DNA of 64,000 nt from an uncultured Kordia sp. (GTDB lineage: Bacteria > Bacteroidota > Bacteroidia > Flavobacteriales > Flavobacteriaceae), in NCBI RefSeq assembly GCF_947496985.1, contig NZ_CANMEZ010000005.1:186001-250000 (forward strand), written 5' to 3'. Below, in pieces: positions 27,018-33,561 of this stretch (its first letter is position 1; each line of letters starts with the position of its first letter). The notes beneath the pieces are model-generated. The model did not search any database, was not told the origin of the DNA, and saw only the letters and a program-made list of their open reading frames with translations. The position numbers and the translations under genes are program-made.

Positions 27018-27770
27018 CTACTTCCGATGAATACTACTCAAAATCTCCATCACTTCTACTTTTTTACGCACAGAAACAGGAACAGTACTTTTGTCTTTCA
27101 ACAATAAATAACCACCATCTGTTTTTATGAAAGCTTTGATAAATTGAAGATTCACTAAGTGACTTTGATGTACACGTAGGAACTGATAACTTTTCAACAT
27201 GTCTGAAAAGTATTTAAGTGTTTTGGTTACAAAAATCTTTTGTCCGTCTTGTAAATAGAAGATTGTATTGTTACTATCCGACTCACATCGAATGATTTCA
27301 TCCAAACTCACAATAATAATTTTGTCTAAGGTATGAAGAGATATTTTATTTGGCTTTTCATTCGGAGCAGCTAAGGTGTCTTTTAAAATGTCTAAACGTT
27401 CTTTATTCGGATGAATTTGACTTTTGGCTTTGTTGATGGCTAATGAAAGTTCCTCTTCTGCATATGGTTTTAATACATAATCAATAGCTGCAAACTTGAA
27501 TGCTCTAATAGCAAATTCATCACTTGCAGTAACAAAGATGATTTTAGAAGTTAAGTTTGGAAAAATTTCCAATACATCAAAACCAGAACCGTCACCTAAC
27601 ATAATGTCTAAGAATAAAATATCGGGTTGTTGTTTGCGCAATAATTTTGCAGTTTCTACAACACTTGAAGCTGTTCCAATAATATTTAATTCAGGATGTA
27701 AGCGTTCAATGTCGCTTTTTAGCATATTTAAAGCTGCAGGAATATCGTCAACAATTACAGTAGTAAGCAT
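27018..27770 (-). CDS. LytTR-family response regulator
   Basis: This is a 250-aa two-component response regulator. The N-terminal receiver domain has the acidic pair in IVDDIP, the phosphoacceptor Asp55 in ILFLDIMLGDGSG, and the T/K positions in IIFVTASDEFA and VLKPY. The C-terminal LytTR DNA-binding domain (about 140-245) shows KIIIVSLDEIIRCESDSNNTIFYL, FLRVHQSHLVNLQFIKAF and a final ...VPVSVRKKVEVMEIL. The sensor kinase gene upstream on the same strand, 97 bp away, is its cognate partner. Targets are not evident. Confidence 0.95.
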   Translation of the reverse strand: MLTTVIVDDIPAALNMLKSDIERLHPELNIIGTASSVVETAKLLRKQQPDILFLDIMLGDGSGFDVLEIFPNLTSKIIFVTASDEFAIRAFKFAAIDYVLKPYAEEELSLAINKAKSQIHPNKERLDILKDTLAAPNEKPNKISLHTLDKIIIVSLDEIIRCESDSNNTIFYLQDGQKIFVTKTLKYFSDMLKSYQFLRVHQSHLVNLQFIKAFIKTDGGYLLLKDKSTVPVSVRKKVEVMEILSSIHRK

Positions 27771-27867: not shown

Positions 27868-30800
27868 TTAATAATCTGTTTCCAGTGGAATTTTAAATGA
27901 AATTTTTGTTCCAGCTAAGGTAGCATCTTTTTCAGAAACATCTTCAATTTTTAGTGTGTTACGTCCTGCTAAGGATTCTATACGTTCTTTGGTTACTTGT
28001 AATGCCATTGATTGATGATCTGTGTTTGTTTTGTTTTGTTGAGATTGATAAATGCCAATTCCATTATCTGTAATTGTAGCATAAAGGAAATCATTGTCCG
28101 TCTTGAAATGAATTTTCAATTCTCCAGATCGTTGCAATGGCATAATTCCATGTCGGATTGCATTTTCTACAAAAGGTTGAATCAACATTGGGGGAATTAA
28201 TACTTCTTCAGGATCTAAATCTGAAGTTAAATCAATTTCATATGAAAAATCTTTGCTCGCCATTAAGCGTTCTACTTCTACATAGTTTTTTAAGGTTTTG
28301 ATTTCTTGCGCAAGCGAAATGGAATCTTTTCTCGAATTTGTTAAGGTTTCACGTAATAAAACAGCAAACGTATTGATAGTTTTGTCCATCTTCGTAATAT
28401 CATTTCGACTCATTCCTTTGATTCCATTCAATACATTGAAAATAAAATGCGGATTCATTTGTAAACGCAATGCTTTTTGTTCTAACGAAAGCATATGATT
28501 TTCTAGTTGTAAACGTTCGCGAATCGCACGGTTTTTTGCTTTTACACGTCTGATATAACTATATACAATATATATAATGATGAGTCCGAGAATTGTCCAA
28601 ACCGTGTTTTTAAACCATGTTTTTTTGTATAGTGGTTGAATGACATAAAACTTGAACTTAATGGAGTCACTTTCCAACCAGTCTTTATTACGTGATTGTG
28701 CCATAAAATTATGATCTCCGTAATCTAAACCGCCAAAAGTAATTTTACTTTCTTTTGTCCATGAACTCCAGTCTTCATCATCAAATTTGTAACGATATAC
28801 AATAGATTCAGGATTGTCTAAATCAATTGAACGAAACTGGAATTTCATATTATTTTGATCTTCAGAAAGCTGTAATGTTTTATCTGCATTTGTCCAATTG
28901 TGTAAATCAATTGAATCTAAATTTTTACCAGCTACTTCAATACTTTCAAAGTGTATTTGCGGTTTTGAGAGTTGTTGTTCAGAAGTAGAAGGTTGATATC
29001 TTGTAAGTCCGTCAATCGTTCCAAACCAAATATTCCCTTCAGTATCTTTTGTGGTAGCGTTATGACAGGTTTCTATACCTAAAAAACCATCATTTTTTCC
29101 ATAGTGAATTACATTGGTGATTTCGTTTTTCTTATTTAATGTAATTTGATCTACACCACCTTCACTTCCTGCCCAAAGTGTTCCATTATCATCAAAAATT
29201 AATTGATAAATATTACTTGAGTATAATTTTTTCTCCCCTTGTAATTGCTTGAATTTTAAATCAGAAGACAACTCAGAATACCAAATTCCTTTTCCAAATG
29301 TACCAATGTACATATCATAATTATGAAAACGAATTGTTCCAATGGCTACTTGGTTTCCAGTAATTTTTTTAGGTTCAATATGTGTGACTTTATCTTTTTT
29401 GATGTAACCTAAATGCCCTTTACTTGTAGCATACCAAATTCGACCAGTTTCATCGCGTGCTAAATCACGAATTGATAAGTCTTTGATACCTTCTTGTACG
29501 CCAAATGTTTTTAGATTGTATAGTTTTTTTGTGTCGTAATCGTACTGAAAACGTGCAATTCCGTCTGCATAGGTAGCAATCCAAACTTGCGAGCCAAATA
29601 TTTTTATGTTACTAACCCAATTAGAAGGCAAACCATCTTCCGTGGTAATACTTGCTGTGTAAATGTCTTCAATTTTTTGAGTTTCATAGGTGATTTCATC
29701 TACGAACGTGCTATCATATACAATAGAATCACGGATCTTCTTTTGATAGATATAAATTCCTTTTCCTTCACTTCCTGCCCAAATGCGTCCTTCTTTATCG
29801 TTGGTTAAAGTTTTTACTTTTTCATCTAAATATTCGCTAGTCACAGTTTCACGATGAATTCCTGTAGAATCAATTGTCATTAAACCAGATTCAGATGTAG
29901 AAAACCACAATGTTTTATTGTGGTTATGAACGGCGTAAATTCTATTGGCCGTTAAGCCATTATCTTTTGTGTAATGTTTAAAGTTATTTTTTTCAAATTT
30001 AAATAATCCGCCACCTGATGAACCAATCCAAATGTTATTTTGTCTGTCTTTGAATACTTTACGAATGTTGTAGACTGTTAATCCATTTCGTTTGGTAATT
30101 GATTTTTCGGGTAAATTATCAAGTAAATTGATTCGCTTGATTCCTGTGTTTGTAGTATTGATCCACAATTCAGCATCATTAATGATATTAATACTATTAA
30201 TTTTTCTTGTTTCTGCAACAATTTGAAACCCTTTTTGATTTGGTGTAAAAGCAAAAATTCCATCTGTAAAACTTGCCGCAATTATTTTCTGTTTGAATTG
30301 TGCTAAAGATTTAAAATCACCATCTAAAATTTTTGTAAACGTTGCCGAGTTTTCCAAACGATCGGTTTTCCACAAACCTCTTTGTGAAGCAATCCAGAAT
30401 GAAGTTCCATCAAAAAGAATATCATTTATTTGTGATGCATTTATAATAGCATTACAATTCAACGGTTTTGTGCCTTCATCAGATTTATAATAATGAATAC
30501 CTTTTTCAGTTGCTAAATAGGTGTTGCTGTTTGTGATTTCAATATCTAATACCTTTGGCGTTTTATATTTTTTAAATTCATTTTTTATACGAACCGAAAG
30601 TCCTTGTTGTGTTCCAATCAATAAAGTGTCGTTTGAAAAACGCAATGCATGAATGTAATTAGAACCAAGTCCTTTTTTTTCATTCCAAATTGTAAATGAA
30701 AGTCCGTCAAAACGTGCAATTCCACCACCTTGCGTTCCAACCCATAAATAGCCTAAATCATCTTGAACAATGGCGTTTACTTGTGATTGTGGCAATCCAT

Positions 30801-30903
30801 CTTTTAATGTATATGCGCGTAATTGATTTTCTTGCGCCATTGAAAACCATGTTCCAATAAACAAAAACGTTAATAAAAGATATGTTTGGTAAACTATTTT
30901 CAT
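27868..30903 (-). CDS. Two-component sensor kinase with ligand_beta propeller (Reg_prop) and LytS-type kinase
   Basis: This is a 1011-aa membrane sensor. A signal sequence is followed by a periplasmic seven-bladed-like propeller pair made of Reg_prop repeats (DDLGYLWVGTQGGGIARFDG, DRQNNIWIGSSGGGLFKFE, DNGTLWAGSEGGVDQI, TEGNIWFGTIDGLTRY). Then come a Y_Y_Y immunoglobulin-like domain (MKFQFRSIDLDNPESIVYRYKF..., about 690-755), one membrane helix (about 762-784), and a His_kinase/LytS-type module with MNPHFIFNVLNGI (His819) and an ATPase part (IPPMLIQPFVENAIRHGI, ITDNGIGI). It pairs with the downstream LytTR regulator. The 1-bp gap to the upstream SH3 gene indicates one operon. Confidence 0.95.
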   Translation of the reverse strand: MKIVYQTYLLLTFLFIGTWFSMAQENQLRAYTLKDGLPQSQVNAIVQDDLGYLWVGTQGGGIARFDGLSFTIWNEKKGLGSNYIHALRFSNDTLLIGTQQGLSVRIKNEFKKYKTPKVLDIEITNSNTYLATEKGIHYYKSDEGTKPLNCNAIINASQINDILFDGTSFWIASQRGLWKTDRLENSATFTKILDGDFKSLAQFKQKIIAASFTDGIFAFTPNQKGFQIVAETRKINSINIINDAELWINTTNTGIKRINLLDNLPEKSITKRNGLTVYNIRKVFKDRQNNIWIGSSGGGLFKFEKNNFKHYTKDNGLTANRIYAVHNHNKTLWFSTSESGLMTIDSTGIHRETVTSEYLDEKVKTLTNDKEGRIWAGSEGKGIYIYQKKIRDSIVYDSTFVDEITYETQKIEDIYTASITTEDGLPSNWVSNIKIFGSQVWIATYADGIARFQYDYDTKKLYNLKTFGVQEGIKDLSIRDLARDETGRIWYATSKGHLGYIKKDKVTHIEPKKITGNQVAIGTIRFHNYDMYIGTFGKGIWYSELSSDLKFKQLQGEKKLYSSNIYQLIFDDNGTLWAGSEGGVDQITLNKKNEITNVIHYGKNDGFLGIETCHNATTKDTEGNIWFGTIDGLTRYQPSTSEQQLSKPQIHFESIEVAGKNLDSIDLHNWTNADKTLQLSEDQNNMKFQFRSIDLDNPESIVYRYKFDDEDWSSWTKESKITFGGLDYGDHNFMAQSRNKDWLESDSIKFKFYVIQPLYKKTWFKNTVWTILGLIIIYIVYSYIRRVKAKNRAIRERLQLENHMLSLEQKALRLQMNPHFIFNVLNGIKGMSRNDITKMDKTINTFAVLLRETLTNSRKDSISLAQEIKTLKNYVEVERLMASKDFSYEIDLTSDLDPEEVLIPPMLIQPFVENAIRHGIMPLQRSGELKIHFKTDNDFLYATITDNGIGIYQSQQNKTNTDHQSMALQVTKERIESLAGRNTLKIEDVSEKDATLAGTKISFKIPLETDY

Positions 30904-30904
30904 G

Positions 30905-31747
30905 TTAATTTGGAGTCGCTCGTTTTTTGAATTCTTTTGAAAATTCTGGGACTAGCTTTTGACCATTCCATTCGAATATGCGTTTCATTGTTTTAGACTC
31001 GAACCAACCTTTTTCGTCATCAATAAGTTCGCCTTCTTCTTTGGTAAATAATACAATTGGCTGTCCGTTATCTTCATCTGTCGTATATGTAAATTTTTCA
31101 GATAGCGCATACACACCACCATCGCCAATTTTAGATAAATCAGCCACTTTGATCAATTTATAATTATCTTTCAAAAATAATACCGTATATCCACTTTCGG
31201 CTCCACAAGAATCACCAAAATAGTTTATTTCTAAAATTTGAATTACATTTTGCAAGTCGTGCGAAGGAGAAAAGCTAATGCCGATATTTTCGTCCATTAG
31301 TTTTATTATGGTTTCTGTATATTTTTTTGTGTTGAATACAGTTCTGATATGTAATACACCTTGTTCTTCATTTAGAAATTTTCGAAAATAGAAATGTTGG
31401 TTTCCATTTTTTTTGTGAGCATTCGCGATAAATTGTCCTGCAATAAATCCTTTTTTACCATTATGAACAACTTCATACCAAGCCGTTTTAGCAGTTGAAG
31501 TTTCTAGAATTTGATCTGTTTTTTTTAAAACTTTTACAAAATCTCCAATATGTAGTATCGTTACAACTTCAGATGTGGTATTTGGTTCGGATCTTAGTTT
31601 TACATTATTTCCATACAATGCATAGGTTTTTTGAATAGTGAAATTATGATAGATATATAAGGAAACATTTTCTTTTTGTGCATAGCTGTTTGTGAAACAC
31701 ATGAAGAAAAGAAGTAAAATAAATGTTTTGGGTTTTAATGTATGCAT
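30905..31747 (-). CDS. SH3-domain secreted protein, 280 aa
   Basis: A signal peptide (KTFILLLFFMCFTNSYAQ) is followed by a bacterial SH3_3-type domain at about residues 38-105 (NNVKLRSEPNTTSEVVTILHIGDFVKVLKKTDQ...AWYEVVHNGKKGFIAGQFI), which usually binds cell-wall or other surface ligands. The remaining 170 residues are beta-rich and not recognised (KWYTETIIKLMDENIGISFSP..., GGVYALSEKF). It ends 1 bp before the sensor-kinase gene on the same strand, so it is probably co-transcribed and could help the sensor see a signal; that role is inferred. Confidence 0.82.
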   Translation of the reverse strand: MHTLKPKTFILLLFFMCFTNSYAQKENVSLYIYHNFTIQKTYALYGNNVKLRSEPNTTSEVVTILHIGDFVKVLKKTDQILETSTAKTAWYEVVHNGKKGFIAGQFIANAHKKNGNQHFYFRKFLNEEQGVLHIRTVFNTKKYTETIIKLMDENIGISFSPSHDLQNVIQILEINYFGDSCGAESGYTVLFLKDNYKLIKVADLSKIGDGGVYALSEKFTYTTDEDNGQPIVLFTKEEGELIDDEKGWFESKTMKRIFEWNGQKLVPEFSKEFKKRATPN

Positions 31748-31919: not shown

Positions 31920-32969
31920 TTATAATTGCGTGTAGTAACGTTGATTGTCAAATTCTGTACGAACGTATGATAATGGATTGTTATGTTGCATCATTGGTTT
32001 CATTACACAAACTGCTGTTGTTTTTCCTTTAAAAATTACTTTTTGACCAACTTTTACAGCTTTCCATCTGAATTTTTCTAATGGTATTCCTGTGTCTTTT
32101 ATTTTTTGACTGTACACTTCGTTGTCGTCAATCCAATCCATAATTTCGTTAGCGTCTGCCAATGAAGGTACATCTTCATCATCTGAGAATTGTACTTCCC
32201 AACGAATTGGAATATTGAATTTGTAAGCAAATGGCTTTCCAGGCTCTTTTTCTTCTTTTGTTCTAATTGCGTCTAACCAGTGAATATCTTCATAAGGATA
32301 TGTACGCATGAATTGTTTTGATAAATCTACATTTCCAGGTGATTGTGCTGTTGGATAGTATCCATAAAACGCTTTTGCTAAGAAATGTTTTTGAAATTGT
32401 CCGTTGAATACTGTTGCATGCGGCGTAGCAAATACTTTTGGCTGATAGTTAGCCGTAAATGTTTGTTTTAGTATTTGTAATAATGCTTTGTTTTTTCCTA
32501 ATTCAGACGTGTGAAATACAAGTTTGCTATTTTCTGCTAATACATTTTCAAGTTTAGGAAGTGTACTTTCTTTTAAACAGTTTACTAATGATTCTTGCGA
32601 TAAAGGCGCGCCATGAATAGTAGTTTCTAATGAAAGTCCTTTTTTAGAGTTTCCTTTGTTTACAATATGAATTTCATTGTAATCTTGATTGTTGTGATTT
32701 TTATTTAACCAAGCAATGATTTCTTGAAGTGAAAATGCATCGTCAACAATGGTGTAATTTTGTGCTTCAAAATGCTTTTTAGCATCTTTATAATAGGTTT
32801 GCGATCCTTTATCGTATCCAGCAATAAACACAACTGCTTGTTGTTTTGCTACAGTTTCGCTTGCTTCTATTGAAGCCATATCGTTAGAGTCTTCTTTTGG
32901 GGAGCATGCAAATACGAGCGCTAATACAAGTCCCATGAATGTTGCCATTTTTATTGCTTTTGTTTTCAT
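31920..32969 (-). CDS. Lipoprotein of unknown function, 349 aa
   Basis: This is a probable lipoprotein. The signal (MATFMGLVLALVFACS) ends with a lipobox Cys. The mature part begins with AVVFIAGYDKGSQTYYKDAKKHFEAQNY and NEIHIVNKGN, alternating strands and helices that look like a Rossmann-type or caspase-like alpha/beta fold, but I could not identify catalytic residues. The C-terminal 150 residues are rich in aromatic and Pro residues (FNIPIRWEVQFSDDEDVP, KVGQKVIFKGKTTAVCVMKPMMQHNNPLSY). The longer open frame upstream reads as non-coding and overlaps the structured 33045-33176 element, so I chose the start at MKTKAIKMATFMG. Neighbours on the same strand are a small ORF and the structured element in its 5' region. 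Confidence 0.75.
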   Translation of the reverse strand: MKTKAIKMATFMGLVLALVFACSPKEDSNDMASIEASETVAKQQAVVFIAGYDKGSQTYYKDAKKHFEAQNYTIVDDAFSLQEIIAWLNKNHNNQDYNEIHIVNKGNSKKGLSLETTIHGAPLSQESLVNCLKESTLPKLENVLAENSKLVFHTSELGKNKALLQILKQTFTANYQPKVFATPHATVFNGQFQKHFLAKAFYGYYPTAQSPGNVDLSKQFMRTYPYEDIHWLDAIRTKEEKEPGKPFAYKFNIPIRWEVQFSDDEDVPSLADANEIMDWIDDNEVYSQKIKDTGIPLEKFRWKAVKVGQKVIFKGKTTAVCVMKPMMQHNNPLSYVRTEFDNQRYYTQL

Positions 32970-33044: not shown

Positions 33045-33176
33045 AAAATCAGCTTGAATAATAGCAATCTGCTTTCGGATTGAAACTACTATCAGTATTG
33101 CATTTTGAAAACCCACTCTTCAATACATTTTGATAGTAACTTTTGACAGCCATCAAAAGCTATTCAAGCTGATTTT
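33045..33176 (-). other. 132-nt element folding as a four-way junction
   Basis: A perfect 16-bp terminal inverted repeat (AAAATCAGCTTGAATA at 33045-33060; TATTCAAGCTGATTTT at 33161-33176) encloses three contiguous hairpins: CAATC...GATTG (33065-33082), TACTATCAGTATTG...CAATAC-bulge-TGATAGTA (33087-33138) and CTTTTGA...TCAAAAG (33140-33159). It lies between the stop of the 33197 ORF and the start of the 32969 lipoprotein gene, on whose strand it would be part of the 5' leader. It could be an RNA control element, a non-coding RNA or a palindromic non-autonomous mobile element. The structure is read directly; the function is unknown. Confidence 0.6.
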
Positions 33177-33196
33177 ACCCAACTAACCAACCTAAC

Positions 33197-33412
33197 TTAT
33201 CTTTTTAATGTGATAGATGCTTCTTGTTTTAGCGGCAATGCAATGTGTTGTAATCGCATTCGTTTTGCTAATGTTGGACTCGAAATCCATTTACCTTCTT
33301 GAAATAAAGCAACCGTGTTTACTTTTCCTTCATTATCAAATTGCATTTTGATTTGCGAATAGATATTCAAATATTTTTGAATCATTTTTGTTGTTGTTAC
33401 ATCGTACCACAT
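33197..33412 (-). CDS. Small ORF of unknown function, 71 aa
   Basis: This codes for MWYDVTTTKMIQKYLNIYSQ and then a charged, basic stretch that includes FDNEGKVNTVALFQEGKWI. The middle reads like a beta-hairpin of the kind found in larger proteins, so this could be a small protein or the tail of a decayed gene. There is no signal peptide and no upstream in-frame extension. It sits between the structured element and the cupin operon terminator. The gene is plausible but not proven. Confidence 0.35.
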   Translation of the reverse strand: MWYDVTTTKMIQKYLNIYSQIKMQFDNEGKVNTVALFQEGKWISSPTLAKRMRLQHIALPLKQEASITLKR

Positions 33413-33561
33413 TTGATCTTTCTTTTTAAAATTTGTAATTTTTATGTGTGATTAAGATGACTTTGTTTCTTAATTACATTTCAAATGTAGTGGCAACTTC
33501 ACGGTTTTTCGGAGTGGTTTTAGAATTCGTTGACGTTAAACTAGAATTCGTTTTAAAACAT

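Follow-up and report, generated by a model that had tools for sequence, protein, structure and literature searches.

The stretch analysed here, referred to as the window, comprises 64,000 nucleotides from the genome of an uncultured Kordia sp. and contains on its minus strand a structured 132-nt element, located between the first small gene of a probable operon and the genes for a lipoprotein, an SH3-domain protein, a histidine kinase and a LytTR regulator. The features of this locus are listed below in minus-strand order; the coordinates of P2, P3 and P4 were taken from alignment A1.

33521-33551, minus strand: perfect LytTR-type direct repeat, ACGAATTCTA-N11-ACGAATTCTA, at the head of the probable operon; kept in 11/11 Kordia
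33482-33489, minus strand: putative -7 box TACATTTG (TAnnTTTG); sequence conserved in Kordia
33197-33412, minus strand: 71-aa ORF upstream of the element; kept in 11/11 Kordia; resembles VIT-vWA proteins at their C-terminus
33178-33195, minus strand: conserved 5' leader TTAGGTTGGTTAGTTGGG; 10 of 11 leader columns invariant (alignment A2)
33185-33195, minus strand: first 11 nt of the leader, able to form the anti-P1 hairpin with 33164-33174, within the P1 5' strand
33045-33176, minus strand: four-way-junction element with closing helix P1 and helices P2, P3 and P4; fold z −6.7; covariation in 11 species
33161-33176, minus strand: P1 5' strand, common to P1 and the anti-P1 hairpin
33139-33160, minus strand: P2 hairpin, with the invariant loop GGCU (inside GAUGGCUGUC)
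33087-33138, minus strand: P3 arm, with P3a, an asymmetric internal loop, P3b and an apical loop that contains the invariant AAGAGUGG
33062-33085, minus strand: P4 hairpin; stem with compensatory changes
33045-33060, minus strand: P1 3' strand; GCUGAUUUU invariant in 11/11, with 4-8 U at its end
31920-32969, minus strand: lipoprotein gene (349 aa), downstream of the element in 11/11 Kordia; without a Pfam family
30905-31747, minus strand: SH3-domain protein, probable operon member
27868-30903, minus strand: Reg_prop / Y_Y_Y / His_kinase sensor, probable operon member
27018-27770, minus strand: LytTR response regulator, probable operon member

In the window, the lipoprotein gene is followed by the genes for the SH3 protein (present in some species), the His_kinase sensor and the LytTR regulator. 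The stop codon of the 71-aa ORF is only 1-20 nt away in nine of the 11 species. The interval between the element and the lipoprotein gene contains no conserved promoter-like sequence, which makes transcription of the downstream genes through the element probable. Gene order, spacing and the upstream motif suggest that the 71-aa ORF, the element and the lipoprotein, SH3, histidine kinase and LytTR regulator genes form one probable operon. The preliminary description had placed the element 75 nt upstream of a lipoprotein start on the minus strand, in agreement with the distance to the ATG found here, and had considered a 5' leader control element or cis-regulatory RNA. Of this proposal, the single conserved copy ahead of the same gene is retained, whereas the position is probably intercistronic within an operon rather than that of a plain 5' leader, and its regulatory role is putative.

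At the head of the probable operon, the direct repeat is followed by TACATTTG, and both precede the 71-aa ORF. LytTR regulators bind two repeats of 9-11 nt with a spacing of 11-13 nt (PMC4847170), and the flavobacterial -7 box has the consensus TAnnTTTG (PMC9723704). The direct repeat occurs 3-5 times per genome in the 11 Kordia genomes, always including this operon, while the reversed-pattern control gave 0 matches. In the window's genome, the other sites lie ahead of genes for a VIT-vWA protein, a lipoprotein and an alpha-2-macroglobulin-type protein; written as ACGAATWCTA with a spacing of 21 bp, the repeat is found at 33521-33551 (minus strand) of the window and at C3:387630, C3:391009 and C1:665192 of the same genome (G000). 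The repeat marks a small putative LytTR regulon with 3-5 sites per Kordia genome, and the order, spacing and motif suggest that the LytTR two-component operon is putatively autoregulated.

Similarity links the 71-aa ORF to the last ~50-70 residues of VIT-vWA proteins and, to a lesser degree, to the C-terminus of a further lipoprotein encoded within this putative regulon (L105:4617-5192). The ORF may be what remains of a VIT-vWA gene that was duplicated. One VIT-vWA gene in the window's genome (L105) directly adjoins a lipoprotein paralogue. The 349-aa lipoprotein itself has no Pfam family and no close solved relative, and its homologues in ten further genera of this family have His_kinase sensors as neighbors.

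The perfect 16-bp terminal inverted repeat reported earlier for the 132-nt element was recovered at 33045-33060 / 33161-33176. The minus-strand RNA folded at −44.2 kcal/mol, compared with a shuffle mean of −23.7 (z = −6.7; none of 200 shuffles was as good), which bears out the initial impression of an order far beyond chance; the plus strand folded as DNA gave z = −7.1. The three inner hairpins lie essentially where they had been placed (P4, P3 and P2), and comparative data back their helices, but the conserved P3 is not a simple stem, since its internal loop is asymmetric and its apical loop is both large and conserved. Similarly, the limits 33045-33176 hold for the element, but the conserved unit also takes in the 5' leader at 33178-33195. 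The leader stays beside the element in two species in which 172 or 342 nt separate it from the 71-aa ORF; therefore, the leader belongs to the unit. Compared with the other species, insertions of ~330 and ~160 nt were observed between the 71-aa ORF and the element at L002 and L003, with both leader and element intact.

An alignment of the 11 species showed standard pairs in 93.5% of the cells, a value that fell to 29-46% when the partner was slid by 1-3 columns. Twelve pairs had changed on both sides and still paired. The covariation score was 0.208 versus 0.120 ± 0.012 for shuffled alignments, and none of 500 shuffles attained the pairing, the number of doubly changed pairs or the score; given that the aligned Kordia sequences are related and not independent, these figures and the following G-U counts are indications and not probabilities. 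Compensatory changes were found in each of P1, P2, P3a and P4, and the variation in P3b was one-sided. The structure therefore survives the comparison with relatives, in which both compensatory changes and conserved stems were found. The element thereby shows one of the hallmarks of a riboswitch, a conserved RNA fold that is kept by compensatory changes and lies upstream of the gene. Departures within pair cells were G-U in 29 cases versus A-C in 7 (19 versus 7 without the constant loop-closing U-G, and 9 versus 0 in P1 alone). This excess of G-U over A-C points to RNA read from the minus strand, the strand of the neighboring genes, as the functional form, and away from a DNA cruciform.

Searches of the genome and its relatives, the check proposed in the preliminary description, revealed a single conserved copy per genome, with the same gene following it. 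Each of the 11 Kordia genomes, including the window's own, which holds a single copy, gave one strong match with no other place near in score; the other ten copies were 81-94% identical to that of the window, and the element was always upstream of the same lipoprotein gene. These observations contradict the earlier suggestion of a mobile or repeat element. The perfect terminal inverted repeat and the good fold of the plus strand would suit a mobile palindromic repeat or a cruciform, but we consider this explanation extremely improbable: the mobile repeat was rejected because the element is single copy everywhere and fixed in one orthologous place in 11/11 species, and the DNA cruciform because the G-U bias favors minus-strand RNA. 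The same linkage in 11/11 species bears on a small RNA acting in trans, either set free from the operon mRNA or transcribed on its own. The element is a compact, independently conserved unit that is intact despite its changed distance to the 71-aa ORF at L002 and L003; however, its constant downstream gene and the lack of a recognizable separate promoter in the leader speak against such an RNA, to which we assign a small chance.

A covariance model built on the 11 Kordia copies scored at least 130 bits in all Kordia. Across 400 genomes of the family, the best non-Kordia place reached 20.5 bits, the chance level for the search size, in a search that scored 8 candidates per genome, so that a diverged relative could escape it. 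Approximately 4 kb around the lipoprotein homologues of the ten other genera contained no such element, and the core pattern matched none of 398 genomes of the order except the window's own. A scan of ~85,000 species genomes with this pattern retrieved eight Kordia records, a set from which the window's own genome may be absent, and three unrelated matches, roughly as many as chance would give with such a pattern. Riboswitches usually spread wider than one genus. Rfam 15 gave no gathering-level match in the window, and the matches admitted at E up to 10 scored no better than chance; a known Rfam family was rejected on the curated cut-off, and a tRNA or tRNA-like identity was rejected because ARAGORN did not recognize the element. 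A coding sequence was also rejected: among the species the length varies from 136 to 146 nt through indels not divisible by three, and by inspection no reading frame is kept. The element represents a structured RNA family that is new and unnamed but of a familiar sort, restricted to Kordia in the genomes searched.

Conservation among the 11 species is focused on unpaired or one-sided sequence. Besides the leader, the invariant columns comprise the P2 loop GGCU (4/4) and the P3 apical AAGAGUGG (8/8). In the distal P1 3' strand, the nine columns of GCUGAUUUU are all invariant, even opposite a mismatched partner, and the P1 5' strand tolerates changes. Identity was 79% in the element, 61% at third codon positions of the lipoprotein gene and 42% in the linker to that gene, whose length to the ATG varies from 60 to 111 nt. 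Sequestration of the ribosome-binding site was rejected on account of this variable linker.

This pattern bears on two rival explanations. As an A-tract/U-tract stem that ends in GCUGAUUUU and 4-8 U in all species, with a 3' strand that is invariant whatever its partner, P1 could belong to an intrinsic terminator, simple or only partial, that has a branched loop and curbs read-through past the 71-aa ORF. However, the branched loop is very large, the G+C content is moderate, the U-run is short (4-5 nt in 10 of the 11 species), no conserved promoter lies downstream for the next genes, and the conserved loops would be left unexplained; a simple terminator scan limited to loops of 3-8 nt found none. 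We judge a terminator to be improbable. The strongest rival is an intercistronic element for mRNA processing or stability, with a partial terminator or a released sRNA after it. Such an element would act as a cleavage site or an exonuclease block and, with no sensing involved, set different levels for the 71-aa ORF and the downstream genes. Its intercistronic place, stable fold and closeness to the upstream stop (1-20 nt in 9/11 species) agree with this role, as does the free linker of 60-111 nt, in which no ribosome-binding site is sequestered; nevertheless, a plain stability hairpin needs neither invariant loops nor an invariant leader complementary to P1. This explanation seems unlikely, although it deserves serious consideration.

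When the RNA was folded as it would emerge, the leader UUAGGUUGGUU paired with AAUCAGCUUGA, which is part of the P1 5' strand. When the actual leader of each species was used, the anti-P1 duplex reached −8.9 to −11.0 kcal/mol (p ≤ 0.007 versus shuffled leaders) in eight of the 11 species, most of which are not independent tests, the leader being nearly invariant. The duplex had moderate support in G009 (p = 0.024) but little in G001 (p = 0.135), and significant pairing was lost in Kordia algicida (G002, p = 0.61). In G003, one of the eight, a shortened leader still keeps 9 pairs, which is a partly independent confirmation. In the complete RNA, P1 exceeds the anti-P1 state in stability by 7-11 kcal/mol; therefore, the latter would be transient or in need of stabilization, and switching would require kinetics or a bound factor. 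Leader-loop pseudoknots were rejected, given that leader complementarity to the P2, P3 and P4 loops was no better than in shuffles, in a test that gave all species one leader start, wrong for G001 and G003.

From these results, we tentatively favor, with confidence that falls short of a firm assignment, a structured element that is specific to Kordia and acts in cis within the mRNA of one probable operon, most likely as an orphan riboswitch-like switch that senses a ligand or a protein. During transcription, the leader would pair first with the P1 5' strand to form the anti-P1 hairpin, and P2, P3 and P4 would fold next. The emerging GCUGAUUUU(U) could then displace the leader, so that P1 would form and close the four-way junction directly before the U-run. 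P1 formation would lower the expression of the downstream genes, via partial termination or a changed mRNA fate, and the balance would be tipped by whatever attaches to the junction or to the invariant loops (GAUGGCUGUC, AAGAGUGGG). The single copy by the same gene in 11/11 species, the 12 pairs changed on both sides, the G-U bias, the near-invariant leader and loops and the anti-P1 pairing in most species favor a switch; the greater stability of P1 over anti-P1, the loss in G002, the short U-run, the negative terminator scan and a distribution narrower than is usual for riboswitches count against it. The downstream lipoprotein, being without a known family, offers no clue to a ligand.

More specifically, the element could represent a new riboswitch class or a new regulator-binding RNA of unusual layout, in which the leader and the P1 3' strand compete for the P1 5' strand within the message of a LytTR two-component system; we consider this doubtful. 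Putative sites of that LytTR system also precede VIT-vWA and alpha-2-macroglobulin-type genes. Only with proof of both a ligand and competition between leader and P1 would the element be more than a known sort of RNA. Fewer such elements have been characterized in Bacteroidota than in some other phyla. If the element is a switch, it would be an undescribed regulatory RNA in Bacteroidota, and RNA-level control would be tied to a putative LytTR regulon of small and well-defined extent, testable in cultured Kordia algicida, for which public RNA-seq of strain OT-1 already exists (Zenodo 8276193, cited in PMC10565126).

Compared with known systems, the element shares with REP/BIME-like or MITE-type palindromic repeats a terminal inverted repeat around hairpins; in contrast to them, it is single copy, has a fixed orthologous place and shows covariation of the RNA strand. 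Like the intercistronic processing or stabilizing hairpins of operon mRNAs, it lies between two genes of a probable operon and has a stable fold, but it differs in its invariant loops and leader and in its four-way junction. With multi-helix-junction riboswitches that have a switching P1, it shares a P1-closed junction, conserved loop sequences, a constant downstream gene and a possible competing helix that takes one P1 strand. Unlike those riboswitches, it has no Rfam match and is confined to one genus, its competitor is an upstream leader that would act on the P1 5' strand, and its P1 abuts the U-run.
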